From contig JAUWNJ010000007.1 in the NCBI GenBank assembly GCA_030612725.1, positions 62,001 through 126,000 on the forward strand: a stretch of 64,000 nt of DNA, read 5' to 3'. A program made the translations under genes and the position numbers. Below, piece by piece: positions 24,970 to 43,598 of the stretch. The stretch's first letter is position 1, and each line of letters opens with the position of its first letter. The notes under the pieces were generated by a model. That model was given only the letters and a program-made list of their open reading frames with translations. It did not search any database and had not been told where the DNA came from. Origin of the DNA: Planctomycetales bacterium (GTDB lineage: Bacteria > Planctomycetota > Phycisphaerae > SM23-33).

Positions 24970-24983
24970 TTTTATGCTCCGTA

Positions 24984-26045: not shown

Positions 26046-26071
26046 GTCGTTGATAATCCTTTCGGGTTTGC

Positions 26072-28298: not shown

Positions 28299-30062
28299 TT
28301 AGGCGATCATTTTTACATTTTGTGATTCGCATAAAACTTTTGGGTCGCCCGTTCCGGTTGCGCGGATTTGTGTCAGGAAATCTTTCAGGTCCAGCGACAA
28401 GAGCAATTCGGCCAATCGCGGGTCAAACTGCGTACCGCTGCACCGGCGAATTTCGGTGATGACTGCGGTCAGGGGCATAGTGTCGCGGTACGTTCTCGAC
28501 GAGGTCATCGCATCGAAACCGTCTGCCAACCCCACGATCAGCGCTTCGATGGGAATTTCATCGCCCGACAGACCCGATGGGTATCCACCTCCGTCGAGAC
28601 GCTCATGATGATGGAGTATGACGGGAATAAGGTCTTCCATCTGGCGGATACCGCTCAATATCGTCGCTCCGATTTCGGGATGGCGCTGCATGGTTTCGTA
28701 TTCCGAACTGGTCAGTTTTCCCGGTTTTCGCAGCACGGCTTCGGGAATACCGATTTTACCGATGTCGTGCATCAGACCGGCAAGATACACCCTTTCGGCA
28801 TGATGCTCATCAAAGCCGAATAATTGCGCCAGTTTTCTTGAAACAATCGCGACGCGTCGTGAATGTCCGCAGGTGTACGGGTCTTTTGCGTCGATACTGG
28901 CAGTCAGAGCATGCAGCGAACCCATCAACAGGTCCTGGACGTCTTCGTAAAGATGGTGGTTTTCGAGGAAAATCGCCGCCTGACCGCCGATGGAAGAGAT
29001 TAGTTTCAGATCGACGCTGTCGAACTCGCCGTCAATCTTGTTGAAGGCGATTACGGCGCCATAGTACTGGCCTGATATTATCAGCGGTGCAGCCACGAGA
29101 GTGCGCATCCGTTCAATCCCATCGCCAAGATGTCCTGCCTGTTCGGAGAACCGGTTATCGACTATCGTGGAAGATGGGTTTTTACCACCGGTTCCTCGTA
29201 TTGAATTTTGCTTTTGCAGTTTTGCGGATCGGGGCGCAATGTACTGCCGGGAGATTTCGACAAGTTGCTTGACCGGTATGAGCAGATTCCCCGCCGAGAC
29301 GATCTGGTCGTCGGAATCGTTGTTCTGGCGAGGATGCAGTACTACCGTTGAAGCCTGAACATGCATTACTTCCAGTATCTCGCCGCAGAGATTCTCGAAA
29401 AAATCCGTCGTCCCGTGCGTTACCTTCATTGATCTGCTTACGCTGTAAAGCAGCGACAGTTCTTCGTAGGTATTTGCCAGATTTCTCGAAAGTGTTCCCA
29501 GTTCTTCCTTTGCTACCTCTTTTGCCTGCTCGGCCTGGATTATCCATTCGAGGATACTGCACATGCTTTCGGCCTGGCGTTCTGTGAACACCGATTCCCG
29601 GCGACACAGTGAAGCCATGACTTCCGTGTCGAGATGCATCCTGTCGCAGGCGTGGATGAATTCTTCGCTTTCAATTGTCCCCAAAGTGGGGAAACCGCCT
29701 ACTGCCGCTCCAATTAGCCTGCGTCGCGATTGCAGTGGTACCGCGAAGATGCAGCATCCGCTCGGCGACGTAGTAATCTCCCGGTGTCCCTGCCTGGCGA
29801 CTTTCTGTGCCAGGTTGCTTATCGCCTCCAGGCAAAATCCCTTTTGTCCGCACATCTCGCAGCAGTACTGCCCCTGAAAACTTGGCGCAGTCAGTATCGA
29901 ACCGGAGGTGTCCCAGAACGATACGCTCAACCCCAGTTCTCGCAGTTTTTCGGCAAGGCGTTTGAGGAAAAACTCCTCTGGAAGAACCTGTCGTTGCGTT
30001 CGAGACGAGGACTCCGAACTTTCTGCGAGCGTTTCGGTTTTTTGCTGCGAATGGGTCTCCAT
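28299..30062 (-). CDS. PocR-like/GAF/HD-GYP protein (probable cyclic-di-GMP phosphodiesterase)
   Basis: 587 residues, no membrane segment. A PocR-like sensory region lies at about 30-180 (SVSFWDTSGSIL...CCEMCGQKGFCLEAI, with a Cys cluster). A helical linker leads to a GAF-like domain (about 210-375, ending ISSIGGQAAIFLENHHLYED). The C-terminal HD-GYP domain (about 385-560) keeps HSRRVAIVSRKLA, the HD of GLMHDIGKIGIPEAVLRKPG, ILHHHERLDGGGYPSGLSGDEIP, and the later SRTYRDTM. HD-GYP enzymes degrade cyclic-di-GMP. The gene overlaps the response regulator stop (TGATG), so the pair are translationally coupled and probably functionally linked. Confidence 0.92.
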   Translation of the reverse strand: METHSQQKTETLAESSESSSRTQRQVLPEEFFLKRLAEKLRELGLSVSFWDTSGSILTAPSFQGQYCCEMCGQKGFCLEAISNLAQKVARQGHREITTSPSGCCIFAVPLQSRRRLIGAAVGGFPTLGTIESEEFIHACDRMHLDTEVMASLCRRESVFTERQAESMCSILEWIIQAEQAKEVAKEELGTLSRNLANTYEELSLLYSVSRSMKVTHGTTDFFENLCGEILEVMHVQASTVVLHPRQNNDSDDQIVSAGNLLIPVKQLVEISRQYIAPRSAKLQKQNSIRGTGGKNPSSTIVDNRFSEQAGHLGDGIERMRTLVAAPLIISGQYYGAVIAFNKIDGEFDSVDLKLISSIGGQAAIFLENHHLYEDVQDLLMGSLHALTASIDAKDPYTCGHSRRVAIVSRKLAQLFGFDEHHAERVYLAGLMHDIGKIGIPEAVLRKPGKLTSSEYETMQRHPEIGATILSGIRQMEDLIPVILHHHERLDGGGYPSGLSGDEIPIEALIVGLADGFDAMTSSRTYRDTMPLTAVITEIRRCSGTQFDPRLAELLLSLDLKDFLTQIRATGTGDPKVLCESQNVKMIA

Positions 30063-30487
30063 CAGGTCGTCTCCGTTAGTTGCTCAGCACAATCGTCCTT
30101 CAGGAGGCACTGCACGCTGCGCAGCACTTCACGAGGGCTGAAGGGTTTGCTGATGACGTTGCGGATTCCCGCTGTCGCCATTTCGTGCTCCTCTATATCG
30201 AATCCGCGAGCGGTCAGCATCAGGACGGGAATATCTCTGGTCTGTTCGTTCTGACGAAGGCGCATGCACAACTCCAGTCCCGTCATGTAAGGCATCTGGA
30301 AATCGGTGATGATCATATCGGGCTTTTCGGCAAGGGTCAGTTCGAGCGCTTCCTCGCCGTCCATTGCGGTGATAACCTCATATCCGGCGTGGTTCAGTTT
30401 CATGGTAACTACGTGGAGGATGTGTGCTTCGTCGTCGGCGACCAGTATTTTTTGCGGCGTCTTTTCGGTATTTTCATGCGTATTCAC
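30062..30487 (-). CDS. Response regulator receiver protein
   Basis: 141 residues, a single receiver domain without an output domain. The acidic pocket is KILVADDEAHIL, the phospho-acceptor Asp is in IITDFQMPYMTG, the Thr/Ser switch in VLMLTARG, and the Lys in ISKPFSPREVL. It sits between the histidine kinase and the HD-GYP gene and overlaps the latter's start, suggesting signal flow from kinase to receiver to phosphodiesterase (inference). CheY-like proteins can also act directly on pilus motors. Confidence 0.93.
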   Translation of the reverse strand: MNTHENTEKTPQKILVADDEAHILHVVTMKLNHAGYEVITAMDGEEALELTLAEKPDMIITDFQMPYMTGLELCMRLRQNEQTRDIPVLMLTARGFDIEEHEMATAGIRNVISKPFSPREVLRSVQCLLKDDCAEQLTETT

Positions 30488-30531
30488 TTTACTCCTCCTG
30501 CTCGCTAAGCCTGGAAAGCCCAGCGGCGAGA

Positions 30532-32013
30532 CTATTGCACAATCGGCAACTCGAAACTGAACGTGCTTCCGCCGTCGGCTTCGCTGGTAACCGACAATTT
30601 TCCGTCATGGACGGACTCGATAATGTGCTTGACCAGCGTCAATCCGAGTCCTGTTCCTTTTGCCATTTTCGAGTGTCCCTGCACTCGGTAAAACTTATCG
30701 AAGATATGCGGAAGGTCTTCGCTGTTGATTCCCACGCCGGTATCGGTAACTTCGCAGACGGCTACGCCCCGGCGCTCGTCCACGCTCGTCGCAATAGTTA
30801 CCGTCCCACCGGACGGGGTGTACTTGACGGCGTTACTTATCAGGTTCAGAACGGCCTGGTAGATCATGTCCCTGTCGGCTTCGATCTGATGATAGACCGG
30901 AACCATGTGATCGATCAGTGTGATGTTTTTGGCTTTTGCCTGTGGTACCACCACGTCGAGTGCTTTTTTGGACACTTCCGTCAGGCTCATTGGTTCGCGT
31001 ACGACGCGTACGACACCGGACTCGATCCTCGAAATATTGAGTATGTTTTCGATGAGTCGTCCGAGGCGATCCGCCTCGCCGGCGATTATTTCGTAGAATT
31101 CTCGCTGGTTTTTTTCGTCGGTAACCTCGCCGTCCAGGAGCATCTCCACGTATGCCTTGATGGACGAGAGCGGTGTGCGAAGTTCGTGTGAGACGTTGGA
31201 GACAAAATCAGTCTTCATCTGCGAGATTTCCTTCTCTCGCGTTACGTCGTGCAGGACCGCAACCACGCCGGAAACCTTTCCCTCATGAGTCATCACACAA
31301 GAAAGGGTCGCGCTGAAAGTATGTGGCTGACCCTTCTGGTCGATAGTGTGCTCGACTACCTTGCGCGTTAAACGATGCTTGCGATCACCATGCTTGGTCG
31401 CTTGCGCCCCGCCTCGCCCCCCGCTTCGGGTCTCACGTATCAACCTTACCAGCATACCGTCGTGAATCACATGGTCGATGTTCTTCCTGATGCTGTGTTT
31501 CAGACTGAAACCCATCAGTTTTTCGGCGGATTCATTGGCGAGAATCAGTTCGTCGAACCGGTTGGTAACGATAACCGCATCGGAGATGGAAAAGACAATC
31601 GCCTCGGTGTGTTTCTTCTCCGCGTCGGCGATACGGGACTGGATTTGCAGTTCTCGACTTTCGGATCGAAGTCGTCCAATCTCGTCCTTAACTACGGACA
31701 GGAAGCGATTCAGAGGCCTGGTAATCTGTGCCAGTTCGTCGTTTCCTTCGATCATCATCAGTCCGATCTGACGTTTTTCGGCCATTTGTTCCAGTTGCGA
31801 TGCGATGCTGCTGACTGTGCGATGAACGTTTCGCCAGAAGACCACCAGGATCAGGCTGGTCAGTGCGGCGATCAGACCCAGTACGAGGTATCCCAGTGTT
31901 TGTGTGTGTACCTCGTACCCCCGCACCATCATTGCGGTGGCGTAGTATGCGGCGCTGGCGCCAAGAGAAATCAACACCACGCTTGCCAGTCCTACTCGTT
32001 TTGCTGTCGTCAC
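30532..32013 (-). CDS. Membrane sensor histidine kinase (PhoR-like, with PAS)
   Basis: 493 residues. Two membrane helices (about 7-30 and 40-62) with almost no periplasmic loop, so it probably senses in the membrane or cytoplasm. A HAMP-like helix follows, then a PAS domain (about 140-260: ISDAVIVTNRFDELILANESAEKLMGF...VVAVLHDVTREKE). The H-box is FVSNVSHELRTPLSSIKAYVEML, and the ATPase motifs are LNLISNAVKYTP, VTDTGVGINSEDLPHIFDKFYRV and GTGLGLTLVKHI. Within the PAS domain there is a low-complexity Gly/Arg/Lys insert (SGGRGGAQATKHGDRKHR, DNA about 31372-31437). The response regulator gene follows on the same strand. Confidence 0.94.
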   Translation of the reverse strand: MTTAKRVGLASVVLISLGASAAYYATAMMVRGYEVHTQTLGYLVLGLIAALTSLILVVFWRNVHRTVSSIASQLEQMAEKRQIGLMMIEGNDELAQITRPLNRFLSVVKDEIGRLRSESRELQIQSRIADAEKKHTEAIVFSISDAVIVTNRFDELILANESAEKLMGFSLKHSIRKNIDHVIHDGMLVRLIRETRSGGRGGAQATKHGDRKHRLTRKVVEHTIDQKGQPHTFSATLSCVMTHEGKVSGVVAVLHDVTREKEISQMKTDFVSNVSHELRTPLSSIKAYVEMLLDGEVTDEKNQREFYEIIAGEADRLGRLIENILNISRIESGVVRVVREPMSLTEVSKKALDVVVPQAKAKNITLIDHMVPVYHQIEADRDMIYQAVLNLISNAVKYTPSGGTVTIATSVDERRGVAVCEVTDTGVGINSEDLPHIFDKFYRVQGHSKMAKGTGLGLTLVKHIIESVHDGKLSVTSEADGGSTFSFELPIVQ

Positions 32014-32028
32014 CGTTTGTTCCTGAAT

Positions 32029-33327
32029 TTACGGATTTAATGTTCGCAACTTGCTTCCTAGAGTTGATGCCATCAGGGTCTTTGCCAGTTTGTGTTTCGG
32101 GTCTGACCGAAGCGCCGCCATGTAACACGCCGCTGCACGATCACTCCGCCCCTGTGCCGAGTAACACCTGCCCAACAGGCACCACAACATCGGGTCGTTC
32201 GGATGCTCCCTGGCCGAGGTCGCAAGAACCCTCAACGCATCGGCAGGGCGTTTTTCCTTCAGCATCGCACAGGCGGTTGCTATGGATATTTCCATCCTGT
32301 CGGCGGCGCCTTGGGAGCCCGTGTGGTTATCGGTCAGTTCCATCGCCCGCAACCCGGCGACGATCCCGCGACGCCCGTCGCCGCAGGCAACACAAGCCTT
32401 GGTCAGAGACAACCATATCTTTGGCTCAGAAGGTTCGATTTTTATGGCCGATTCATATGCAACCTTCGCCTCGCGCGGACGATTTAACGCCATGTAACTG
32501 TCGCCGATCATGATATAAACCCAACAAGACGTTGATGCCGGTTTATCGGGGGACAGTGAGGTTGTTGAATCACTAATCAGTTTGAGCGACTCAATGGCCT
32601 GTCTGTAATTTCCAGCGAAGAAATTAGCCTTGGCCAACGATTTCCGTATGGACCTTTGAGACTTTTGGGGGTTGTCGCTTTGCTTCATATCAAGGCATTG
32701 CTGGAAAAAATCGACCGCTTTGGCATAGTTCCCTGTCAGCATCGCAACTTCGCCTGCAAGAATAAGCACCGACGGTTCGTTTTCCGTTCCGATCCGCTGG
32801 AGGCGGATTTCCAGAAGTTCCAACGCACCTTTGGGCTTTCCCATTGCGACCAGCACTTCGGCCGATGCCATTAAGTACGCATCGTTGGACGGGTCCAGTG
32901 CGCGGGCTTTCTGATAACACGCTAACGCTTCGGGATACCTGCTTGTCCTTTCGGCGGCCTCTCCGCGAAGATACGCAATCTCTGCTCCCATTGGCGCCTT
33001 GGCGGAAACCCCGGTCTTGAGACTCTCCGAGAGCGCCTCGGCCTTTTGCAGATGCTCGTCGGCTTGGTCATAACGACCCTTGCCCAGAAGAACCTTCGCC
33101 AGAAGTATCCTGGCGGGGAGGTAATCACCGTTCATGCTCAAGGATTCCATTGCGCAGGATTGGGCCTTATCGAGCGATCCGCCTCTGAGGTGTTCTTCGC
33201 CGACGCTGCAGATAATGCGGGCACGGGCCTGGTGCCACTGCTTGTGTGACTTGACCTTTTCCTTCTGCATAAAGTCGCAGCCGGTCATCGCCACAACCGC
33301 CAACAGTAATATTGTGTAACGTTTCAT
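32029..33327 (-). CDS. TPR-repeat lipoprotein
   Basis: 432 residues from the ATG at 33327. It begins MKRYTILLLAVVAMTGCDF, a lipoprotein signal with Cys at about 17. About nine TPR units follow, such as GRYDQADEHLQKAEALSES, SRYPEALACYQKARALDPSNDAYLMASAEVL, GNYAKAVDFFQQCLD, NRPREAKVAYESAIKIEPSEPKIW and GRSDRAAACYMAALRSDPKHKLA. Its place right after the secretin gene suggests a pilotin/PilW-like role in secretin assembly or outer-membrane anchoring. That role is inferred from position only. Confidence 0.85.
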   Translation of the reverse strand: MKRYTILLLAVVAMTGCDFMQKEKVKSHKQWHQARARIICSVGEEHLRGGSLDKAQSCAMESLSMNGDYLPARILLAKVLLGKGRYDQADEHLQKAEALSESLKTGVSAKAPMGAEIAYLRGEAAERTSRYPEALACYQKARALDPSNDAYLMASAEVLVAMGKPKGALELLEIRLQRIGTENEPSVLILAGEVAMLTGNYAKAVDFFQQCLDMKQSDNPQKSQRSIRKSLAKANFFAGNYRQAIESLKLISDSTTSLSPDKPASTSCWVYIMIGDSYMALNRPREAKVAYESAIKIEPSEPKIWLSLTKACVACGDGRRGIVAGLRAMELTDNHTGSQGAADRMEISIATACAMLKEKRPADALRVLATSAREHPNDPMLWCLLGRCYSAQGRSDRAAACYMAALRSDPKHKLAKTLMASTLGSKLRTLNP

Positions 33328-33412
33328 AATCAATCCTTTCTGAATCATGCCGGGGATTACCTAATCTCCGTATCTCTCCCAAATTGACAGATTCGGCAAA
33401 AAAAACACCTTT

Positions 33413-35389
33413 TTATTCCTTGGGCTTATCCGCAGGGTCCTGCGAGGACGCAGGTGGAACAGGAGCACCGGCTGATTGCTCCAAAGGCAGTTCCAGACGT
33501 CGTCCTATGCCCAGTGCATCGCGGATTTCCTTCTCAAGACGCATCCCATCTCCGGGTTTGAGCGGGAGCATAACCTTTTCGACCGGTTGTCCTATCTCAG
33601 CCATAATCATCCGCTGGATCACGTAACGGGTATCGGAGTATCGCGGTTCATTCGCCCAGATGGCTTCTTTTGTGAGACGTTCCCTGAGCCTGATTGCCTC
33701 GCTCATCCTCGGTTCCAGCGACAATGTCATATTCAGGTCCCAAAGTGCTCTGCATCGGTACCCTCTGGCGATATGATGCCTGGCCCATCGCATCTGTGTC
33801 TGTGCCAGTCTGTTCCGTCCGAACCACATCATTTCCCGTCGAAGCCCGAGACGAACGCGATCTATATCGTCTCTGTACTGTTCAGCGACTTCCTCATCAA
33901 TGGGGTGCTTGATGATATGCGGTGTGATGAGGATGATTACCTCCTCACGAATCGTCTCATCAGAGCGATTGCGGAAAAGGGAGCCTGCGATGGGGATGTT
34001 ACCCAGCCCCGGGACCTGTGCCCGTCTGCTGGTGGTGTTTTCGCGGAACAGCCCGCCGATGACGATCGTGTGCCCATCTTTGACCAGAACGTTGGATGTG
34101 CATTCGGTGGTTAACTCTGTGGGCAACAGATCGGCGGTAAGACCACCGTCCGACAACTCAGGATGGATCTCCAGGCGGACATAACCGTCGGTGCTGATGT
34201 AAGGCCTGACGTACAGTTGAGTACCTGTTTCGAGGAACTCGACGGTCTGGGTGGCGACGGTCTCCGTTACTGTGGTGGTCAGGTAGCCGTCCTTGCGTCC
34301 GACTAATATCTCGCCTCGCTGCTTGTTCATTATCAGCAGTTTCGGATTTGCCAGGACGACGACGTCCGTGATGCTTTCGAGTGCTCGCAGCAGGACGCGG
34401 AACTGGTTATAGACGAACCCTATGGAAATTCCGCCCGGATCGACGCCGCCGGCGAAATCGGTCCGGAAATTGGCGCGAGGACGGTCCAGTTGTGCGTTTG
34501 GTACCGCTCCAGGCGTCAGGTCCGTCAGGTCGGTGCTGGCGTATCCCATCGTACGGAAGTCGATACCGGCCAGGGCGTTAAAATCGATTCCCAGAGCGTT
34601 ATTTTCGTCCAGCGTTGCCCGCAGGATGGTCGCCTCGATAAGAACCTGCTGTGGGCGAATGTCGATCCGGCGGAGGATGGCGGTAATTTTTTTGAGATTT
34701 TCGGGATAATCCTTCACCACCAGGATGTCCTCGGTCGCCAGCGAGTTTCCTCCGGCGGCGTTAGTGGCCGACGGTATGCCGGTAGCCGCGGCGGGAGTCG
34801 TCTGAACGCCTCCTTCGTCGCTCATTGCAAGTTTGATAAGATCATGGGCGTCTTTGGCGGTGATGTAATTGAGTTTGAAGACCTTCACCGCCAACTCACG
34901 TCCTGCCGCGAGGATTTCCGCCAGTTGCTTAGGCGTGTACACATAGACAAAGTTTCCTTTGCGAACGTACACAAGACCCGCCGATTTCAGCACCGCCTCA
35001 AGGGCCTCTGTGAACGTTACGTCATACAGATCAACCGTTACCGTACCGCTGACTTCTTTGGTGGTAATGATGTTGATCTTGTTCTGCTTGCTGAGCATCT
35101 GGAGGACCAGTCGCAGGTCCACGTCGCGAACGTGAAGTTCCTCAACACTGCCTTCGGCGCCGAACGCCACTTTAGAACCGGTAGCGGGAGTTGTATTGTC
35201 CGGTGTGATCTGCCCTGGCACGGCAGGCGTGCCGTTGTCTGCCGGCTGGGCAATGGCGAAACCGACCGCCAGCAGCATTATCAACACTGTCGGCGCGATA
35301 ACCCGTCCGACCTTTCGGTACGGGAATCCACCTGTTACGACACGTGCAAAAACCGACGCGGTGGGTAATTCTGCAATCCTTTTCATCAT
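33413..35389 (-). CDS. Secretin (PilQ/GspD family)
   Basis: 658 residues; AAAGGAGCACA precedes two adjacent ATGs, 35389 and 35386. An N-terminal hydrophobic signal (about 30-48, ending FAIAQ) exports it. An STN/N0 domain lies at about 75-155 (EELHVRDVDLRLVLQMLSKQNKINI...GNFVYVYTP). Then come an N1-like domain (VFKLNYITAKDAHDLIKLA) and the secretin barrel at about 230-520: VVLANPKLLIMNKQRGEILVG, VRLEIHPELSDGG, DGHTIVIGGLFRE, and VPGLGNIPIAGSLFR...EEVIILITPHII. A ~130-residue charged extension follows the barrel. It forms the outer-membrane gate for the pilus or pseudopilus. Confidence 0.95.
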   Translation of the reverse strand: MMKRIAELPTASVFARVVTGGFPYRKVGRVIAPTVLIMLLAVGFAIAQPADNGTPAVPGQITPDNTTPATGSKVAFGAEGSVEELHVRDVDLRLVLQMLSKQNKINIITTKEVSGTVTVDLYDVTFTEALEAVLKSAGLVYVRKGNFVYVYTPKQLAEILAAGRELAVKVFKLNYITAKDAHDLIKLAMSDEGGVQTTPAAATGIPSATNAAGGNSLATEDILVVKDYPENLKKITAILRRIDIRPQQVLIEATILRATLDENNALGIDFNALAGIDFRTMGYASTDLTDLTPGAVPNAQLDRPRANFRTDFAGGVDPGGISIGFVYNQFRVLLRALESITDVVVLANPKLLIMNKQRGEILVGRKDGYLTTTVTETVATQTVEFLETGTQLYVRPYISTDGYVRLEIHPELSDGGLTADLLPTELTTECTSNVLVKDGHTIVIGGLFRENTTSRRAQVPGLGNIPIAGSLFRNRSDETIREEVIILITPHIIKHPIDEEVAEQYRDDIDRVRLGLRREMMWFGRNRLAQTQMRWARHHIARGYRCRALWDLNMTLSLEPRMSEAIRLRERLTKEAIWANEPRYSDTRYVIQRMIMAEIGQPVEKVMLPLKPGDGMRLEKEIRDALGIGRRLELPLEQSAGAPVPPASSQDPADKPKE

Positions 35390-35531: not shown

Positions 35532-36170
35532 TCACTCTACCATTTGTAACTTCACCTCCACGCCCTCCATGACGACGACACAGCAATCAGAGGAAATGGA
35601 CTTGAGACGAAATCCGTTTATCAGGTCTCCTGTCTGAAGAACCTGTCCGTTTATCAACGCCGTCGGCGACCGACCAAGCATGGTGGTCGTCAGGCATAAC
35701 GCTTTTGCCCTGGTGCGGATTGACTTGATGTGCTCGGCCCGCTTGAGTTGCTCTCGTTGTTCGGCTTCTGCCAGTTTTTGAGCATGACCCGGTTGTTCGG
35801 GCGGAGACGCACCGTTGTTCGCATCGGTCTGCTCGGAGGGCGGGAAGCATCTGGTATCAGGCCAGAAGATGTCTCTGGTTATGTTTCGATCCATTGATGC
35901 CGTATTAATCCGTCGGTATTTCCGGGCGATTTTTGGTGTCAGGGCGGTCCCGGTATCTCCACCGGAATTCTGATTATCGGCGTCGGATGTGGCGATGTCG
36001 GCGCCGCTGACTTTGGATGGCGGGCCATGACTGATAACAATCCTTCCGATAACGATACCTGCTACCACCAGCAGGACCACCACCAGTATGGTCGTTTTCT
36101 TCTTATCCTGCCGAAGTTCGGTCTTGAATCGACTCATCCAATCATAGAATTTCGCATTTGCGCCGTTCAT
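35532..36170 (-). CDS. GspC/PilP-like pilus assembly protein
   Basis: 212 residues. A cytoplasmic N-terminus (MNGANAKFYDWMSRFKTELRQ) is followed by one membrane helix at about 26-46. A disordered periplasmic linker (SDADNQNSGGDTG, then SEQTDANNGASPPEQPGH) leads to a C-terminal small domain with GRSPTALINGQVLQTGDLINGFRLKSISSDCCVVVMEG. That resembles the homology region of GspC or PilP, which binds the secretin N0 domain. The start overlaps the pilO stop (TAATG). The identification rests on topology, the terminal motif and position between pilO and the secretin gene. Confidence 0.7.
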   Translation of the reverse strand: MNGANAKFYDWMSRFKTELRQDKKKTTILVVVLLVVAGIVIGRIVISHGPPSKVSGADIATSDADNQNSGGDTGTALTPKIARKYRRINTASMDRNITRDIFWPDTRCFPPSEQTDANNGASPPEQPGHAQKLAEAEQREQLKRAEHIKSIRTRAKALCLTTTMLGRSPTALINGQVLQTGDLINGFRLKSISSDCCVVVMEGVEVKLQMVE

Positions 36171-36739
36171 TATTCGGACCCCGTTTGTTGTTCCGTGAAA
36201 TAGATATTCATGCCCATTTCGATTTGGAGTTTTCCCGACGGGGACACTTTGTGTTGCTTGTCTTCGCCCGACTCGATTGTCAGACGTTCGATCCGTACCA
36301 GCCGTGTCATTCCGTCGATCCGCCTGAGGAACCTTGCCAACGACAGAAAATCACCCTCGCATCTCAATGTTATCGGGAGACAATTGTATAATGGGGTTTC
36401 CGACGGATTCCCCGGCTGGATGAGCTGGTTGATAAGTTTTTCCTGTGATAGCCCCGAAGCGATTTCGTGGAGAAATCCTGCCAGTTCCTGACGTTCCGGT
36501 AGTCGCTGCCCCCAGTCTTCGTCGTTATATCGCCGCTTCATCTTTTCGATTTGGCGCAGCATTGGAGAGACGCGTGCAGCCATTTCGCTGTCGGTTTTGA
36601 TGTGGCGTTTAATCTCAATTTTCTGCGAGGAAACATTATCAGCGGCGGCCGACTGGGTGCGATAAACAACCGCGAAATAAGTGATCGTAATCACCGTCAG
36701 GATTCCCAGGACGATCATGTTGTCTCTCGAAAGCAGCAC
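36170..36739 (-). CDS. pilO: PilO-like protein
   Basis: 189 residues from a GTG at 36739, chosen because AAAAGGAGAATTATCACC precedes it. An earlier in-frame TTG has no such site. One membrane helix (about 9-28), then a coiled-coil (KRHIKTDSEMAARVSPMLRQIEKMKRRY) and a ferredoxin-like alpha/beta domain (LPITLRCEGDFLSLARFLRRIDGMTRLVRIERLTIES), the PilO/GspM pattern. It partners PilN in the inner-membrane alignment complex. A stretch QHKVSPSGK near the C-terminus is encoded by a short DNA module (36231-36257) that also occurs in pilM. Confidence 0.8.
   Translation of the reverse strand: MLLSRDNMIVLGILTVITITYFAVVYRTQSAAADNVSSQKIEIKRHIKTDSEMAARVSPMLRQIEKMKRRYNDEDWGQRLPERQELAGFLHEIASGLSQEKLINQLIQPGNPSETPLYNCLPITLRCEGDFLSLARFLRRIDGMTRLVRIERLTIESGEDKQHKVSPSGKLQIEMGMNIYFTEQQTGSE
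36231..36257. repeat. Short hairpin module inside pilO
   Basis: TTTCCCGACGGGGACACTTTG..., nearly identical (about 25 of 27) to 38614-38640 in pilM. It comprises two mini-hairpins, CCC-GAC-GGG and CAC-TTT-GTG. It is translated in pilO as QHKVSPSGK and in pilM as QHKVPLSGK, in the same phase. Confidence 0.75.
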
Positions 36740-36777
36740 GGTGATAATTCTCCTTTTAAAAATCTCTCTTCGTTGGT

Positions 36778-37560
36778 TCACCTGGTCAGGTAGCAACTGG
36801 CCTGGAACTCCCTGGCTGAACGCTGACGAAAGGTAACCGTTTTGGTATAGCCCATGTTCACGTTTTCAAAGATCCTTCTGGCGGAAAGTTGACCGATAAA
36901 ATTGGCTACGTCCACATCGCTCATGGCAAGACCTGTAACGGTCAGGCGTGCTCGTCGAACGGGTGCAACGGCGTCTTTAAACCTGCCTTTGCGTGCAACG
37001 GTCGGTCGCGCGCCGCGATGGGATCCGGTAGCACGCGAATGCGATTTGCCAGACCTGGACGCTTCGGCTGAAAGATCGACTGTCTGTAAATCCAGTGAGA
37101 CTATGACTATATTCGACGGTGTTATCCGGCATAACTCAGCCAGAATGACGGTGCAATCGGTCCGGCCTCCAATCTCCTCGTCAATCTGTTTCTTGATCAG
37201 CAAGTCGGTAACCTGCTTTTCCAGCGACGGTATCATTGAAGCCTGTTGCCGAAGGCTTTTCCTGCTCTTTTCAAGCGTTACCAGATTTGCCCGCGCTTGT
37301 GTGATCCGACCCTGGCGAACGCAGGTCAGTATGACCATAACCACGATACATATAGCCAGGAGGTATCCCTGACGAATAAGTCGATGACGCCGGAAACGCT
37401 GGTACCGGATACGCTCCGGTAAAAACTCCACTTGAGATCCTTGACGTTGGAAATCCTGTTTATTCACAGTCCGCTCGGCGACGACGGGCGAACCGTCGGA
37501 TTTTACCGAAGACTGCAATAAAGCGTCTGTATTTGTCCCAATTGGGTTCGTCGTTTGCAT
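36778..37560 (-). CDS. pilN: PilN-like protein
   Basis: 260 residues. A ~75-residue cytoplasmic N-terminus ends in QVEFLPERIRYQR (the conserved N-terminal motif by which PilN contacts PilM usually reads INLLP). One membrane helix lies at about 66-84 (GYLLAICIVVMVILTCV), then a coiled-coil (RANLVTLEKSRKSLRQQASMIPSLEKQ) and a periplasmic domain with LCRITPSNIVIVSLDL. A basic, Ser/Arg-rich insert (SRSGKSHSRATGSHRGARPTV) follows. The start overlaps the pilM stop (TAATG), and the pilO start lies just beyond the pilN stop region. Confidence 0.82.
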   Translation of the reverse strand: MQTTNPIGTNTDALLQSSVKSDGSPVVAERTVNKQDFQRQGSQVEFLPERIRYQRFRRHRLIRQGYLLAICIVVMVILTCVRQGRITQARANLVTLEKSRKSLRQQASMIPSLEKQVTDLLIKKQIDEEIGGRTDCTVILAELCRITPSNIVIVSLDLQTVDLSAEASRSGKSHSRATGSHRGARPTVARKGRFKDAVAPVRRARLTVTGLAMSDVDVANFIGQLSARRIFENVNMGYTKTVTFRQRSAREFQASCYLTR

Positions 37561-38831
37561 TATCTGTTTTCCTGCTCTGACACCCCCGAACCAACGAGTG
37601 TTGCGTTAGTACCGGAAACAACCTGGTTTCTGTGATCGGCCAATGAAAATTTTGCACTTGTAGAACCGGGAATATCCGCCTTGATCTTCGGTTGCAAACC
37701 GCGAAGGGCCAGACCCGCCGCTACCGACCACTCCGTCAACTCTCCTCGACGGTCGCTCCCCATTACCACACCGCCAAGATCGATCCCCCACAGCGGTTGC
37801 CCTATCACACATTCACAATCGAGATATTCGTTCAGCGATTTCACCAGGTGCTGATCGTAGGCCTCGCCTCCGGTCAGCGTGATCGTGGTCGGGCGAAACC
37901 CCCTGAACGTAACCGAGCAATAACGCAGGCAAAGGCTTATCTCTCGCGCAAGCGTCTCTATCTGTTCACGAATGGCGTCAAAAACGGACCATTCCAGTTT
38001 TTCTTCCACTTCGCTCGCGACTCCACTCTCGAAGATGCGCCTGCGAAGCGAAGCCGCCTCGGAATAACTCATGTTCAGTTCCTCAGCGACGCTTTCGTTG
38101 AATTTCCGACCGGCGATGTCAATGGTCTTAATCAGCAGTATTGTCATTCCCCTTGCCACGATTACTTTCGTGGCCGACAATCCTATATCGACGATCACGG
38201 TAACGACCGACTCGTCGTCTGACCGTCGGAGAAATCGTTGATATGTACGAAACAGCGCGGTCGGTTCGGCGTCTATGTGGGCGGGGTTCAGATGCATCTC
38301 CGAGAGCATCTCAAGGTGTCGGCGAATCGTATCTTCAGGAACGGCCATAAGTATGACTTCGTCCCTGGTCTCGACGCCCTGGCGGACTTCGCCGGCCCTG
38401 ATGTAGTGAACTCGATCCGAGGCGACCTCGAATCCGAACCGTTCCTGGCACTCCCATACAACCGCTGAAGCCAGTTCGTTATCCGGCATATGAGGAAGGC
38501 GGGCGTTTTTGACGCCTATTTCGTCGGTCCGCACACAACTGACGACGTTTCGACCATGGAATACTCCGCTTTCGAGCATCTCGCGAGCGTTCTCGACAAC
38601 AAGTTGCCGGCGCTTTCCCGACAGGGGCACTTTGTGTTGCGAGCCTGCCTGCCCACCTCCGACAGGTAGGCGGGCGTCCGATCCAATAGCGTCTTCCGGC
38701 AAGTGACGTGCAGTGGCCGCTACTACAAATGGACGCTCGCGCACCGTCGCGAATTGCAGCATTCTGATGCTGTCGGCTCCGACATCCAGACCTATTTGCC
38801 CATACTTCGTTCTCGATAGCAACTCGAACAT
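37560..38831 (-). CDS. pilM: PilM, actin-like type IV pilus assembly ATPase
   Basis: 423 residues from the ATG at 38831, which follows GAAGCGGAGCGATA. Cytoplasmic actin-fold protein that recruits PilN. Motifs: YGQIGLDVGADSIRMLQF (phosphate 1), VIVDIGLSATKVIVARG (phosphate 2), TITLTGGEAYDQHLVKSLNEYL (adenosine). An insert at about residues 44-68 (ARLPVGGGQAGSQHKVPLSGK) lies in a position where relatives are short. Its DNA consists of two neighbouring repeat elements (38643-38671 and 38614-38640). Despite this the frame and downstream motifs are intact, so the protein is probably functional. Confidence 0.92.
   Translation of the reverse strand: MFELLSRTKYGQIGLDVGADSIRMLQFATVRERPFVVAATARHLPEDAIGSDARLPVGGGQAGSQHKVPLSGKRRQLVVENAREMLESGVFHGRNVVSCVRTDEIGVKNARLPHMPDNELASAVVWECQERFGFEVASDRVHYIRAGEVRQGVETRDEVILMAVPEDTIRRHLEMLSEMHLNPAHIDAEPTALFRTYQRFLRRSDDESVVTVIVDIGLSATKVIVARGMTILLIKTIDIAGRKFNESVAEELNMSYSEAASLRRRIFESGVASEVEEKLEWSVFDAIREQIETLAREISLCLRYCSVTFRGFRPTTITLTGGEAYDQHLVKSLNEYLDCECVIGQPLWGIDLGGVVMGSDRRGELTEWSVAAGLALRGLQPKIKADIPGSTSAKFSLADHRNQVVSGTNATLVGSGVSEQENR
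38614..38640. repeat. Short hairpin module inside pilM
   Basis: TTTCCCGACAGGGGCACTTT..., matching 36231-36257 in pilO. It directly adjoins the palindromic element at 38643-38671. Confidence 0.75.
38643..38671. repeat. In-frame palindromic element in pilM
   Basis: Arms GCCTGCCTG and CAGGTAGGC (8 of 9 pair) around an 11-base loop. On the coding strand it is read LPVGGGQAG, the same phase as the tsaD copy (LPASGKQAG). Confidence 0.8.
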
Positions 38832-38886
38832 TATCGCTCCGCTTCTTTTTACCCTCATGCCCCTGTTACGCCGTCGGTATAACCAC

Positions 38887-39402
38887 TTACTGACCGGCAA
38901 CAGTAACACGCCCACTGACCGGTGCGACGGTTACAGTGTATGTGTGCGAACCTGCAACTATGGTAACTGTCCCGTTATTGTCAGGCGCGCCAAGTGCGTC
39001 AAACGTAACGTCCAACGCACCCCCGAAATCGGCCGATGACACCGACACATTCTCAAATCCGCCCAGCGTGTCGAAATCAACAACATACGCTTGTTTGCTA
39101 ATCGGATGAATCAGGGTCCCGCTTGCGTTAGAGACAGTATAAGAATTACCGCTGACGCTGAATGTTACTGATACAGGCGATTGCGTCGTAATGGCCTGGC
39201 TCTGTGCATACTCCAGGTCCGACATTATCAACCTCGCCGCAGAAGAAGCCTGAATACTGGCCGCACCGGTGACATACGGGACCGTCATCGCTGCGACAAT
39301 GGCCAATATGACCAACGTTACAATTATCTCCACCAGGGTGAACGCGCAGCGTCCCTTCTGGAAGTCACGGGAGAAACTATTTTTTGGGACGTTTCCGAGC
39401 AT
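38887..39402 (-). CDS. GspH/FimT-type minor pseudopilin
   Basis: 171 residues from the ATG at 39402, preceded by AGAAGGAGGACCTTAAAA. A type III signal FQKGRCAFTLVEIIVTLVILAIVAAM at about residues 15-40, then the GspH-like body ASSAARLIMSDLEYAQSQAITTQSPVSVTFS. It is rich in beta strands and ends GRVTVAGQ. Minor pseudopilins prime or tip the pseudopilus. The leader codons TTCCAGAAGGGACGC resemble the hairpin module at 54102 and 17724. Confidence 0.88.
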   Translation of the reverse strand: MLGNVPKNSFSRDFQKGRCAFTLVEIIVTLVILAIVAAMTVPYVTGAASIQASSAARLIMSDLEYAQSQAITTQSPVSVTFSVSGNSYTVSNASGTLIHPISKQAYVVDFDTLGGFENVSVSSADFGGALDVTFDALGAPDNNGTVTIVAGSHTYTVTVAPVSGRVTVAGQ

Positions 39403-39742
39403 TTTTAAGGTCCTCCTTCTCTTTACCTTCACCGGCGATGGACACGCGGATCTCCCCGCTTTTCAGCAGGGTGATGATTTTGTCCAGTTGCTTGTTGGTT
39501 TTCTGGGCTGCCTTCAACGTGCCTACACGCTGTGCCCTGGCATCAATCAGGTTGAGAGTACTTCTACCGGACTTGGACCCCTTGGCTGCCGCTGATGCGT
39601 CGGAGACGTTCGATGCCGGACCGTTCGCCCACAACCCGACAATCAGAACCGTAAGCAACACAACAATGGCCGAGAGGCAAAAACGCGTATAACCATCAAT
39701 GTGAACTGTAGTAACATCTGCCGGTTTCTTATAGTCATTCAT
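39377..39742 (-). CDS. Small single-pass membrane protein of the pilus locus
   Basis: 121 residues from the ATG at 39742 (CGAAGGAGCCTTGTG upstream). A short cytoplasmic start, one membrane helix at about 22-42 (FCLSAIVVLLTVLIVGLWA), then an Ala/Ser linker and a helical segment AQRVGTLKAAQKTNKQLDKIITLLKSGEIRVSI, ending in a basic tail. Its end overlaps the start of the gspH-like gene. No family recognised. Position suggests an accessory role in the pilus complex. Confidence 0.65.
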   Translation of the reverse strand: MNDYKKPADVTTVHIDGYTRFCLSAIVVLLTVLIVGLWANGPASNVSDASAAAKGSKSGRSTLNLIDARAQRVGTLKAAQKTNKQLDKIITLLKSGEIRVSIAGEGKEKEDLKNARKRPKK

Positions 39743-39762
39743 CACAAGGCTCCTTCGTTTTC

Positions 39763-40911
39763 TTAATCATTCCAGGTCTGAACAGTTACCACGGGCATGC
39801 TGCTTCCCGGTTCTACGGAAAAATCGTAGAGTTTCACAATATCTTCATCGTAATTCAGGACGTGGGCTCCACCCAACTGGCTGGCATAACCAGACATATT
39901 GCTGATCACCGCCCCGTTGACCGTAGTGCTGGACTGGCTGGTGGACCCCCACGGTATCACGCCCAGATTGGTAACCACCGCCCCGTTAATGGTTACATTC
40001 CTGGCCAAGTCGGTAACCCTGATCGCACCTGTGGCGACAATGGCGGGGAAACCATCGACAGCAGTGAGCGTAATGTTATCTCCATACAACTCGACGTTCC
40101 CGTCAATGATCAGCGTACCTGTAAAATTCAGATTAGTGTGCAGTTTTACCGTGTTGCCGCTACTTGGTCTGAGGTACACGACTCCCCCGACGTTGCTCGG
40201 CGTAACTGCATTACCGTTGGCCAACGGATTGTTCTGCTCGAAGTCTATATCCGTGAACTCCTCCGCCTCATAGTTGCTTCTGCCGATGGTGTATTCGATG
40301 TAATCTTCGACCTCTATATCAGGGAGCGATACCTCTTCAGCGTCCCCAATGATCGAGCCGGTAATCCGATGCAGCGGGTCCGAAATTCCGTCAGTACCAC
40401 TGGCGCCCCCGTTAATAACAGCCATGTTAAGCAACTGACCGTTGATGTGGACGTTACCATTAACGGTCAGTGTCGTAGGCATTATTGCCAATACAGTATC
40501 GACAACTACTCCGTAACTCGTGCTCACTTTCTTGTTGTCGGACCTGAAGGCCGTTATCGAACTGGTCCGAGAGACCGACCCGACCATGGCAGTGGATGTA
40601 AGCGTATAAAGACCGGGTGTTTCGGAGTCTTCCTGAGCGCCGATGGTGTAACTGTCCGACGCACCGTCCACATAGAAAGGTCCAAGCGGCGACTCAAAGT
40701 CTTCCGGGCTGAACCGTAGGACGTAGAGCGCGTGCTCCAGTCCCGACTCGGCTATGTAGCGTGCCCTCGCCAAAGTCTGATAATTTTGCGAGACCTGAAT
40801 CTGGACAGACGCCACCGACAGATACGACATCCCCAGGATGAACCCCGCCGAGGTGATAATCAGCACCAGCAGCATTGCGAATCCAGGTTGTAAGCGACTG
40901 CTTCTCATCAT
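39763..40911 (-). CDS. PilX/GspK-like exported protein
   Basis: 382 residues from the ATG at 40911; a TTG three codons earlier is in frame, and no strong ribosome binding site is visible. The N-terminus LQPGFAMLLVLIITSAGFILG is a prepilin-like leader with a membrane helix, followed by QVSQNYQTLARARYIAESGLEHALYVLR, the PilX-type N-terminal helix. The remainder is mostly beta (repeated GNVHINGQLLN, DGNVELYGDNITL, RNVTINGAVVTN), suggesting a beta-solenoid. It lies between the GspJ-like gene and the small membrane protein gene. It could be a large minor pilin or pilus-tip protein. Confidence 0.7.
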   Translation of the reverse strand: MMRSSRLQPGFAMLLVLIITSAGFILGMSYLSVASVQIQVSQNYQTLARARYIAESGLEHALYVLRFSPEDFESPLGPFYVDGASDSYTIGAQEDSETPGLYTLTSTAMVGSVSRTSSITAFRSDNKKVSTSYGVVVDTVLAIMPTTLTVNGNVHINGQLLNMAVINGGASGTDGISDPLHRITGSIIGDAEEVSLPDIEVEDYIEYTIGRSNYEAEEFTDIDFEQNNPLANGNAVTPSNVGGVVYLRPSSGNTVKLHTNLNFTGTLIIDGNVELYGDNITLTAVDGFPAIVATGAIRVTDLARNVTINGAVVTNLGVIPWGSTSQSSTTVNGAVISNMSGYASQLGGAHVLNYDEDIVKLYDFSVEPGSSMPVVTVQTWND

Positions 40912-40972
40912 TTTACTCAACTGTTACCGGTTTTTCACATCATCGGTCTTGCCGGTCTTATATGGGTTTTAT

Positions 40973-41788
40973 TCAGTCATCATCGTCGTCATCGGCACCA
41001 CCACCGCCGCTTAAGTCAAGCACAGGTATGCCTTCGACAAAAGACACATATCCGGTTGCGTCGGCGCGGAGACGGGCTGTGTTTGTCAGCGTTATCTGCT
41101 GGGCGTCCTGTCCCACCGCCAGGCGCATCAGAACGAGTTGCGGTGTCGGCGGGGACTCGTCTGTAACGACTTCGAAATTCGACACGCCCACTGCCAGTGT
41201 CCGTTGGGTGACGTAATCTGAATATGCTGGATTGACCAGCAGGTTCCGGACTCTGCCGACATCAGTTACGTAAACCAGCGTCTGGGAGGTGTTCAGCGAC
41301 GATGACACCGAAGGTGGAAATGCCACCTGTAATCGCTGGACTGTCTGATTGTCGGTATCGGATTGAATCAGAACCAGTTCAGCGACGTTAATCTTCTCGT
41401 CGCCGTTATTGTCTCCGGTCCAGATAACCATCCCGTCATCGTCTGCCGCTGTAACAAGAGCGGCTTTGCGGACGTCGGCAGCGATGCTCCTCATGGCGTA
41501 TCTTCCGGAAGATACCGCCTCGACCATGCTGTCGGTACTGGCCTTGGCGCTGGACAACGCGGAACTGACCGCTACCACCGCCATTCCGATCATCGCCGTA
41601 ATGGTTACCGCCATCAACAGTTCGGCAAGCGTAAACGCGACCATGCCTCGCTGAAGCGAGCACGCCAACAGATTGGTTGATTGGTTGACTGGTTGACTGG
41701 TTGATTGGTTCATCTGTTTTTCTTTTCCAAGTCCCAAGTCCCAAGTCCCTGGTCCCTGTTTCCCTGTATTTCTGTATCTGTTATTCAT
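40973..41788 (-). CDS. GspJ-type minor pseudopilin with repeat-derived N-terminal extension
   Basis: 271 residues if started at 41788, where ATGAATAA overlaps the upstream stop; a second in-frame ATG lies at 41713. The type III signal is LQRGMVAFTLAELLMAVTITAMIGMAVVAVSSAL. Before it lies an unusually long leader of about 50 residues (GPGTWDLGLGKEKQMNQS, then TSQPVNQSTNLL) encoded by 7- and 8-bp tandem repeats. The body (SGRYAMRSIAADVRKAAL...) fits GspJ/PilW. The C-terminus is a run of Asp. Whether the leader is translated in full is uncertain. Confidence 0.8.
   Translation of the reverse strand: MNNRYRNTGKQGPGTWDLGLGKEKQMNQSTSQPVNQSTNLLACSLQRGMVAFTLAELLMAVTITAMIGMAVVAVSSALSSAKASTDSMVEAVSSGRYAMRSIAADVRKAALVTAADDDGMVIWTGDNNGDEKINVAELVLIQSDTDNQTVQRLQVAFPPSVSSSLNTSQTLVYVTDVGRVRNLLVNPAYSDYVTQRTLAVGVSNFEVVTDESPPTPQLVLMRLAVGQDAQQITLTNTARLRADATGYVSFVEGIPVLDLSGGGGADDDDDD
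41672..41755. repeat. Octamer and heptamer repeats within the gspJ-like 5' end
   Basis: Plus strand: TTGGTTGA, TTGGTTGA, CTGGTTGA, CTGGTTGA, TTGGTT (8-bp unit), then CAAGTCC, CAAGTCC, CAAGTCC, CTGGTCC (7-bp unit). The array keeps the reading frame open on the minus strand. Confidence 0.9.
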
Positions 41789-42251
41789 TGGCGTATACCA
41801 GCTTGGTAAGACTCACCAGCGTATCGTCGTGGTAGCAGACATTAACGGTGATGCGAATGAATGTCGGCTCTTCGGACTGGTCCTGACCCGCTATATAGAC
41901 GCTTTCAACCGTTGCGCTGCGTGTCAATGCAACGGCGGCAGGGTCGTCCACTGTAACACCGTCGAATCCTGCTATTTCCCCTTCAGCCTCGGAGTATCCG
42001 TCATAATCGTCCATGTCGTCCCAGTTGCTTCTACCCGTTTCGCCGGCTTCGGAACTGTTGGGATCGTGAAAGGGTTTGGCGAGAATTTCTTCCATCAGGT
42101 CCTGGGCGAGATTGACAGCGAGAGTTGAGCGGACATTCTGGGCGGTATTGGCAGCACCGGCAGTGAATGGCATGATAACCGCACCGACCACCATCGCAAG
42201 TATGACAGAGGCCAACAGGGCTTCGATTAATGTAAAACCGCTATTAAACAT
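41781..42251 (-). CDS. GspI-type minor pseudopilin
   Basis: 156 residues. MFNSGFTLIEALLASVILAMVVGAVIMPF is a short type III leader plus helix, with the Glu at +5. QNVRSTLAVNLAQDLMEEILAKPFHDP follows, matching the GspI/PilV pattern of a long first helix with AxxLAxxxMEE. An acidic middle (DDMDDYDGYSEAEGEIAGFDG) is followed by a beta C-terminus. The stop overlaps the start of the gspJ-like gene. It lies downstream of the major pilin gene, as in type II secretion operons. Confidence 0.85.
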   Translation of the reverse strand: MFNSGFTLIEALLASVILAMVVGAVIMPFTAGAANTAQNVRSTLAVNLAQDLMEEILAKPFHDPNSSEAGETGRSNWDDMDDYDGYSEAEGEIAGFDGVTVDDPAAVALTRSATVESVYIAGQDQSEEPTFIRITVNVCYHDDTLVSLTKLVYANE

Positions 42252-42371: not shown

Positions 42372-42818
42372 TTAATAGGTATCGTGATCAACACCACCGG
42401 TGGCGTCGTCATCGTCCGCATTAATCTGGCCGGTAGTGGTGTTGAAATCCCAACCGGCGTTGTCGTCACCCACAGTACCGTCAATATCAACCGTGTTCAG
42501 ATTGTTGAACTGGTTGAGCGCTATTTTCTGGAGATACGGACCGTATGCGCCGGCAGCGTCAACGGCGCCTTCAATGTCGGTCTTTCCATTCATGGCCTCG
42601 AGGAAAGTGGCCGTACCGTCGCCGGGTAGCGCGTCCTTGTGCTGAATCTTGTAAAGTTCGATCTGACTGCGGAACGTCTGCAAGTCCGATTTCAGAGCGG
42701 AATTACGGGCATCGTTCGACGCTTCCGTGAACTGCGGAATCACGATCGCTGCCAAAATTCCAAGGATAATCACGACAATCAAAATTTCGACCAATGTAAA
42801 ACCTGTTTTGTTACCCAT
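42372..42818 (-). CDS. Major pseudopilin (GspG-like)
   Basis: 148 residues from the ATG at 42818, preceded by AAAGGTGGAGGTGTAACG. A very short leader MGNKTG is cleaved before FTLVEILIVVIILGILAAIVIPQFTEASNDAR, the classic pilin helix. The helix continues as NSALKSDLQTFRSQIELYKIQHKD, then a Gly/Asp-rich end with many Asp residues, as in calcium-binding GspG. It is the first gene of the locus and lies about 270 bp downstream of a cyclic-di-GMP riboswitch candidate, so it is probably the gene most directly controlled. Confidence 0.92.
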   Translation of the reverse strand: MGNKTGFTLVEILIVVIILGILAAIVIPQFTEASNDARNSALKSDLQTFRSQIELYKIQHKDALPGDGTATFLEAMNGKTDIEGAVDAAGAYGPYLQKIALNQFNNLNTVDIDGTVGDDNAGWDFNTTTGQINADDDDATGGVDHDTY

Positions 42819-43085
42819 CGTTACACCTCCACCTTTAGAGTTACCAAATCCCATAAAACGACTTCCCAAAACATCACGCACGCTGATTACTGTCCTGCCC
42901 GCCTACCTCCCTTCTGTCTGTTCAAAGGACCACACCTCACCAGAACCTCTCTGAACCTTTCTCGTATCGACTACGCCGTAACGCGCCTTAACTAAAATGC
43001 AGACATTTCGGGGAAACATTTAGCGACTAAAGGGAGGCGGGAAAACTCTTCCCACGCGCGAACCGCGCACCGATGTAAAAAGGCG
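42819..43085 (-). other. Leader between riboswitch and pilin gene
   Basis: No ORF is likely. On the minus strand it contains two consecutive hairpins after the riboswitch, GCGCGGTTCGCGC and GGGAAGAGTTTTCCC (about 43035-43070), followed by CCTCCCTTTAG. These are candidates for the expression platform. A fragment CCTGCCCGCCTACCT near 42897 resembles the palindromic element of tsaD/pilM. Confidence 0.5.
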
Positions 43086-43205
43086 AGCGATAAGTCCCTT
43101 CGGTAGCCCGGCCAACCCGATAGGTCCACATGAAAAGACCCTTCAGGCCCCGCAACTTTGCGCCCCGTCGGGAACACTCCCGACAGGTTGCCTTTTCGGG
43201 GACAA
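43086..43205 (-). ncRNA. GEMM-I cyclic-di-GMP riboswitch candidate
   Basis: On the minus strand the order of GEMM-I elements is present. CCGAAAAGGCAACC comes first. Next is a stem TGTCGGGA/TCCCGACG, then GGGGCGCAAAG (43156-43163 for GCGCAAAG), then TTGCGGGGCCTGAAG. A second domain GGGTTGGCCGGGCTACC follows, closed by TCTTTTC/GAAGGGA (43096-43118 region). These match the conserved GGCAAACC, GGGACGCAAAG, CGGGxCUAA and tetraloop-receptor-like GGUxGCCGGGxUACC of the Vibrio Vc2 class. It lies upstream of the pilin gene in the correct orientation. The base at the G20 position appears to be G, favouring cyclic-di-GMP over cGAMP, but this is tentative. Confidence 0.78.
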
Positions 43206-43307
43206 ACATGTCCTGCTGCTGCGACTTGCTGTCAATGCAAGCCGCGCAACATTTACACTCTAAAATACAAATCGCCGACAAGCAAAAAAATCACATGATA
43301 ACAAACA

Positions 43308-43418
43308 GGGCGTAGGGCATAGGGCGTAGGGAAAAACAGAAAAAGAGGGACTTGGGATTAGGGAAACTTTGTTTTTCCGTTTTTACCTATACCCTACGCC
43401 CTATGACCTACACCCTGT
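43308..43418. repeat. Heptamer inverted-repeat pair
   Basis: Left array GCGTAGG, GCATAGG, GCGTAGG (43310-43330); right array CCTATACCCTACGCCCTATGACC (split here only for description) at 43386-43410, the reverse complement. The left unit is the same as at 21050-21070. Confidence 0.88.
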
Positions 43419-43440
43419 CTTTTAGCGAGGCATGGATTTC

Positions 43441-43598
43441 ATACCGCGCACGAAAAGTTAATGCGATTGGTATATGGAGTACCTTACGAGCCGCGACCGT
43501 AAGGAAGCGGTCCAATAGATGTTCGCATAGGTCTGACCGCTCCTTCACAGTCGCGGCTCGTTTATTTCGACATCGCATTAACTTTTCGTGCGTGGTAT
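43441..43598. mobile_element. 158-bp nested inverted-repeat element (MITE-like)
   Basis: Outer arms of 27 bp, 43441-43467 and 43572-43598, pair at 26 of 27 positions. Inner arms of 26 bp, 43487-43512 and 43535-43560 (start CGAGCCGCGACCGT), pair at 22 of 26. There is no ORF inside. The right end coincides with the first base of the birA stop codon on the plus strand. Together with the arrays at 43308 and the riboswitch it accounts for most of the 780-bp gap between the pilin gene and birA. Confidence 0.8.

Follow-up and report, generated by a model that had tools for sequence, protein, structure and literature searches.

An aptamer of c-di-GMP riboswitch class I (GEMM-I) lies on the minus strand ahead of the major pilin gene of a type IV pilus/secretion locus in a Phycisphaerae genome (Planctomycetota), and it stands between two promoter motifs, because a sigma70-like motif lies upstream of it and a FliA/WhiG (sigma28)-type motif precedes the pilin. 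The best explanation, which we favour as a reasonably probable one, is that a c-di-GMP riboswitch gates read-through from upstream, in addition to transcription from a separate sigma28-type promoter. All of the support comes from comparing sequences of uncultured organisms, and the promoters are motifs. The window referred to below is the whole stretch of DNA that was analysed, 64,000 nucleotides in length.

43095-43202, minus strand: c-di-GMP-I (GEMM-I) aptamer with bulged P1, P2 and P3 (RF01051, R2 model, covariation)
43191-43192, minus strand: GG of GGCAA, the G20 equivalent selecting c-di-GMP over cGAMP (sequence, alignments; role from PMC6274999)

The sequence-only reading had recognized four ordered GEMM-I blocks with matching stems, which held, and had proposed an Infernal/Rfam search. 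The blocks GGCAACC, GGGGCGCAAAG, CGGGGCCTGAAG and GGTTGGCCGGGCTACC are all present in order within 43208-43085 of the minus strand. A full-length match to RF01051 (model 1-87) was obtained at 43202-43099 (-) with 35.7 bits, just above the gathering threshold of 35 (E = 0.0026 when the 64 kb are searched with all 4227 Rfam families); genome-wide it is the sole match above the cut-off in the whole 3.16-Mb genome (E = 3.1e-5). An identity with c-di-GMP-II was rejected, there being no covariance-model match up to E 5 in the narrow search. Because the RF01051 score is only marginally above the cut-off, an independent covariance model (R2) was built from 11 homologues outside the genus, with no sequence from the window's own genus, and it found 43208-43085 (-) at 67.8 bits (E 2.2e-17) as the sole match in the window. 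The R2 structure comprises 22 pairs with 97.1% standard pairing, 8 of them changed on both sides, P1, P2 and P3 covarying around the three-way junction of RF01051; none of 500 shuffles reached any of these measures, and slid controls were 24-51% paired. A score that exceeds the Rfam cut-off by just 0.7 bits and a missing GNRA loop would be expected of a functionless sequence that matches RF01051 weakly, by chance or as a decayed aptamer, but the covariation and the position conserved across genera argue against this, and the leave-genus-out score of 67.8 bits refutes it in practice, leaving it hardly any chance of being correct. The minus-strand element is thus confirmed at the sequence level as a GEMM-I aptamer, to which class it belongs by every sequence test run, except for the optional GNRA loop.

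The window aptamer resembles the c-di-GMP-I prototypes (RF01051; V. cholerae Vc2 and C. difficile Cd1) in its three-helix fold, in the GGCAA, GCAAAG and GGCU(A/G)CC segments, in the pocket and in having a motility/surface-organelle target, P3 being the usual GCAAAG...GGGCU stem. It differs from them in a bulged P1 (UCCC-CG / CG-AA-GGGA, with a two-base AA bulge), in a 10-bp P2 hairpin closed by GUGU rather than GNRA, and in its position 277 nt before the pilin start, with a conserved second promoter between and no visible terminator. Because of the GUGU loop, the tetraloop-receptor contact of the prototype, in which the P2 tetraloop docks in a P3 receptor, is probably absent from the window aptamer; some homologues retain GNRA, and this tetraloop, common but not universal among c-di-GMP-I riboswitches, was not used as a defining criterion.

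The pocket positions G20, A47 and C92 are occupied by the GG before CAA, by A throughout the A positions of GCAAAG and by the CC after GGGCUA, and these bases are identical whatever numbering register is used. The highest narrow-search score, slightly above that of RF01051, was given by c-di-GMP-I-GGC (RF03167) with 37.1 bits, a family that likewise has a P1 with a two-base AA bulge; however, the aptamer falls 22 bits under that family's own cut-off of 59 and carries GCAAAG in place of its GCGAAG, which is not the family's pocket, and, its A47 equivalent being A, it is not the GGC variant. The genome encodes five GGDEF proteins, all with GHxxGD and none with a Hypr serine, whose position we take to be that of the Asp in this motif, and these five diguanylate cyclases look canonical. 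Since the pocket is the c-di-GMP set and the GGDEF proteins all carry Asp, c-di-GMP is the expected ligand and would be bound by the aptamer. Sensing of another cyclic dinucleotide, cGAMP, as by the GEMM-Ib riboswitches of Geobacter, might be considered since these too precede pilus genes (PMC6456294, PMC9262584), but the selectivity base, A in cGAMP riboswitches (PMC6274999), is G in the window, its congeners and the aligned homologues, and the genome contains no Hypr GGDEF, the Ser-bearing type of enzyme that makes cGAMP (PMC6456294). We therefore reject a GEMM-Ib identity and regard cGAMP as a very unlikely ligand. The pilM riboswitch of Geobacter metallireducens (PMC9262584) is similar in placing a GEMM-I fold before pilus-assembly genes, whereas it senses cGAMP and works as a transcriptional ON switch with an intrinsic terminator, the window aptamer having G for the selecting A and no terminator.

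As had been proposed, the aptamer is followed by the major pilin gene and by a pilus/secretion locus of Pfam-supported genes. The locus was described as one of 19 genes; it is real, but by our own count it consists of 18 minus-strand genes, from 42881 down to 23749.

42372-42818, minus strand: major type IV pilin gene (PF07963 N_methyl, 8.6e-7)
41781-42251, 40973-41788 and 38887-39432, minus strand: pseudopilins (Pfam, synteny)
39763-40920, minus strand: conserved 385-aa protein (Pfam, synteny)
35532-42251, minus strand: gene block from pseudopilin to PilM, PilN, PilO and PilP-like (Pfam, synteny)
33413-35389, minus strand: secretin, PilQ/GspD-like (PF00263, 2.1e-38)
30062-33348, minus strand: TPR protein, PAS-histidine kinase and response-regulator receiver (Pfam)
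28299-30062, minus strand: PocR-GAF-HD-GYP protein (PF13487, 5.8e-38)
26072-27787, minus strand: PilB/GspE ATPase with degenerate MshEN domain (PF05157, 1.5e-15; PF00437, 2e-134)
23749-26300, minus strand: PilT-like ATPase and PilC/GspF, end of the locus

A STAS gene completes this content. The pilin starts at ATG 42818, with the Shine-Dalgarno sequence GGAGG at 42830-42826, and an in-frame GTG occurs at 42881. A further Shine-Dalgarno-like GGGAGGT is seen at 42901-42911, about 90 nt before the pilin start, and many homologous leaders have AGGAGGTG at a like place with no obvious long reading frame; in two relatives (L034 and L056; G003, G025) the pilin gene is tandemly duplicated or triplicated.

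The locus does encode an HD-GYP enzyme, with the HD...HHExxDGxGYP signature intact (HDIGKIG, HHERLDGGGYP), and the PocR-GAF-HD-GYP protein is likely a c-di-GMP phosphodiesterase. Because the kinase-receiver-HD-GYP-STAS-ATPase order is kept in loci with and without the aptamer, its gene is, as judged from gene order, an old component of the locus and not a companion of the riboswitch. The suggestion that the ligand's destroyer is under the ligand's own control thus holds as a possibility, but the enzyme is not specifically tied to the aptamer; it is equally present in aptamer-free loci and so is no proof of a feedback loop. The MshEN domain of the ATPase was considered as a second c-di-GMP sensor of the locus and rejected. 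The consensus has two (R/K/L)LGxx...LxxxLxxQ motifs (PMC5013675, PMC11731258), whereas motif I here has QLG (Q for R) and motif II has LLG with the equivalents of G47 and Q61 lost, similar losses occurring in two homologues; the motifs being degenerate, the domain is not counted as evidence.

43257-43285, minus strand: sigma70-like promoter motif, -35 TTGCTT at 43285-43280 and -10 TAGAGT at 43262-43257 (motif conservation)
42965-42991, minus strand: FliA/WhiG (sigma28)-type promoter motif TTAAG-N17-CGATA, between aptamer and pilin (conservation)

Both motifs flanking the aptamer are conserved and presumably act as promoters. In 14/16 homologues, TTG-N3-N16-18-TANNNT is found in the 100 nt ahead of the aptamer (500 shuffling runs gave a mean of 1.6 and at most 5), and the aptamer-bearing transcript is predicted to start just downstream of the sigma70-like -10. 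Between aptamer and pilin, T(T/C)AA(G/T)-N16-18-CGAT is found in all 16 aptamer-bearing leaders, nearly always with N17. Of the 47 named homologous loci whose upstream sequence is long enough, 35 contain T(T/C)AAG-N17-CGAT, about 0.2 being expected from shuffles, while each other spacing from 13 to 21 occurs 0 or 1 times; the motif accompanies 13 of 13 loci with the aptamer and 22 of 34 without. Its geometry is of FliA/WhiG type, TTAAG-N17-CGATA having the same spacing as the flagellar consensus, in which 15 nt separate the two boxes (TAAA-N15-GCCGATAA). A motif of the same kind, one base shorter, lies ahead of the family's flagellin genes (7/20 by strict match), and a PilZ-domain gene in the window's genome has a sigma28-type motif with identical spacing upstream. 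Two sigma factors encoded in the genome exceed the FliA/WhiG cut-off; the gene of one is next to flagellin, that of the other at a different place.

Several side observations touch on these elements. The PilZ-domain gene (L176; G000:C47, ~2900) has TTAAGTTGTC...GTCGATA upstream, which is near-identical to that genome's flagellin promoter but one base longer. The second FliA/WhiG sigma (G000:C60:45341-46006, 250 bits) is distant from the flagellar genes, and this second type occurs in most family members, including those in which a flagellin was not detected. Between a biotin-ligase-like gene and the aptamer promoter, at 43299-43424 and 43441-43598, are two long, imperfect inverted repeats with arms of 33 and 27 nt, which may be a terminator or a small mobile repeat. 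Matches of MIR and other Rfam families at 43289-43431 were dismissed as artefacts because an inverted repeat lies there.

An ordinary 5' UTR riboswitch would have the aptamer transcript as the sole mRNA of the locus, with c-di-GMP acting directly on a long leader in which TTAAG-N17-CGATA is a protein or RNA element. The 5' UTR of a target is indeed the normal place of GEMM-I riboswitches, and pilus genes are known targets of this class (pilM, PMC9262584; PMC6200980). However, the element recurs at fixed spacing in the 22 of 34 aptamer-free loci noted above, has the exact FliA geometry TAAA-N17-CGAT (consensus TAAA / GCCGATAA in PMC8325347) and resembles the flagellin promoters of the family, and we consider this arrangement unlikely. 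The sequence-only reading had taken the aptamer as the leader of the whole locus; it does precede the locus, but since the sigma28-type motif lies between aptamer and pilin, transcripts from that promoter would not contain the aptamer.

43022-43036, minus strand: CTCCCTTTAGTCGCT, a candidate anti-aptamer arm that could base-pair with GCTACCGAAGGGA, the 3' strand of the aptamer (duplex position)

No clear expression platform was found in the window leader. The hairpins that had been read as one are unsupported as terminators, since the window leader has no intrinsic terminator between the aptamer and the sigma28-type motif, and such terminators appear in only 3/16 leaders across the family versus 1.2 expected, with no clear excess; an intrinsic terminator was accordingly rejected as the platform. 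An own-genus hairpin before the second promoter, CTAAATG/CATTTTAG, was also discarded, not being conserved in congeners. The best anti-aptamer duplex lies 45-62 nt past the aptamer in 8/11 distinct homologues (p 0.003 by shuffling), and its energies are barely better than those of shuffles (mean z -0.63); because the position clusters but the energies are not significant, the anti-aptamer helix is kept as a candidate only. The distance from the aptamer to the -35 box of the sigma28-type motif is 103-114 nt in 11/16 genomes despite unrelated sequence, and in none of the loci examined does the aptamer lie between that motif and the gene. Such constancy and placement would also be expected if the aptamer RNA were a separate short transcript, or if its transcription interfered with the sigma28-type promoter, with no read-through into the pilin; against this, most genomes show no terminator in the stretch from the aptamer to the second promoter, and we think it decidedly improbable.

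Returning to gated read-through, the sequences themselves show the aptamer with its pocket bases, the conservation of its place and both promoter motifs; ligand binding, promoter activity, the read-through mechanism, whose sign may be ON or OFF, and the co-transcription of the HD-GYP gene are what we infer. The sigma70-like (housekeeping) promoter just upstream would yield an RNA with the aptamer as its first domain. Binding of c-di-GMP would stabilize P1 and P3, whereas in the ligand-free RNA the 3' aptamer strand could pair with the arm about 50 nt downstream. This switch may alter read-through by RNA polymerase over the next ~100 nt, past the FliA/WhiG-type promoter and into the pilus locus; that read-through is stopped by Rho-dependent termination is a guess. 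As the aptamer lies upstream of a separate sigma28-type promoter, it probably gates read-through of the housekeeping transcript, and, with this second conserved promoter downstream of it, the riboswitch would govern only part of the transcription of the locus. The locus would thus have two sources of transcription, of which the sigma28-type promoter is basal and shared by Phycisphaerae, whereas read-through gated by c-di-GMP is found mainly in one clade. If read-through reached 13-15 kb downstream, the HD-GYP phosphodiesterase would provide negative feedback. More speculatively, and with considerable doubt, a layered circuit may be pictured, in which a riboswitch-gated housekeeping transcript was placed before a pre-existing WhiG/FliA-type pilus promoter, the base level is set by a sigma28-family factor that may, as in Rubrobacter, be linked to c-di-GMP, and the in-locus HD-GYP protein closes the loop. 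The interpretation given by the sequence-only reading is, on the whole, partly supported.

The closest relatives of the host, identified by a PilM-profile search among named genomes, are MAGs labelled Planctomycetales and Phycisphaerae. In 16 genomes the bulged-P1 aptamer stands ahead of the major pilin gene of this syntenic pilus locus; among 59 named homologous loci, 11 show this shape strongly and 2 weakly but correctly placed. On the secretin tree, aptamer-bearing loci need two or three changes, their rows being one 12-row clade that includes the window, together with L097 and the weak pair. One row filed as Alphaproteobacteria (L108) falls within Phycisphaerae on this tree and is probably a mis-binned contig. 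The family has two GEMM-I shapes, the bulged P1 of the window type and a second with P1 GCGG/CCGC and no AA bulge, which about 15 relatives carry ~20-180 nt ahead of a different PilM-PilN operon (L019, L040, L041, L042, L045, L050, L008, L011-L013, L015-L017, L021, L030). The second shape was not found in the window's genome, an absence that is possibly only an artefact of an incomplete assembly (96% complete, 65 contigs). In other Phycisphaerae (L003, L029, L044, L046), GEMM-I aptamers precede genes whose product starts are Tad/Flp-type-pilus-like or VWA-like, and two genomes (G094 and G179) carry two such aptamers in tandem, about 1.5 kb apart. In the literature searched, c-di-GMP riboswitches of Planctomycetes were not the subject of any paper, although such work may exist.

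In one respect the promoter layout is like that of Rubrobacter, where type IV pilus genes are transcribed under WhiG and c-di-GMP exerts its effect via the anti-sigma factor RsiG (PMC8325347). A type IV pilus cluster, a FliA/WhiG-type promoter (TAAA / GCCGATAA), in the window a motif only, and a tie to c-di-GMP are common to both, whereas c-di-GMP works through an anti-sigma protein there and the window has a riboswitch upstream of the promoter. The aptamer class and its preference for pilus genes were already known. The additions are a subfamily with a bulged P1 that, throughout a clade of uncultured Phycisphaerae, is associated with a single pilus locus, and comparative support for a sigma28-type promoter that is more widely conserved and that the riboswitch precedes and does not follow. 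If the proposed arrangement is true, target calls made from "aptamer upstream of gene" alone would overstate control here, and the association of type IV pili with FliA/WhiG-type control, which among the papers found is shown for Rubrobacter (PMC8325347), would extend to Planctomycetota.
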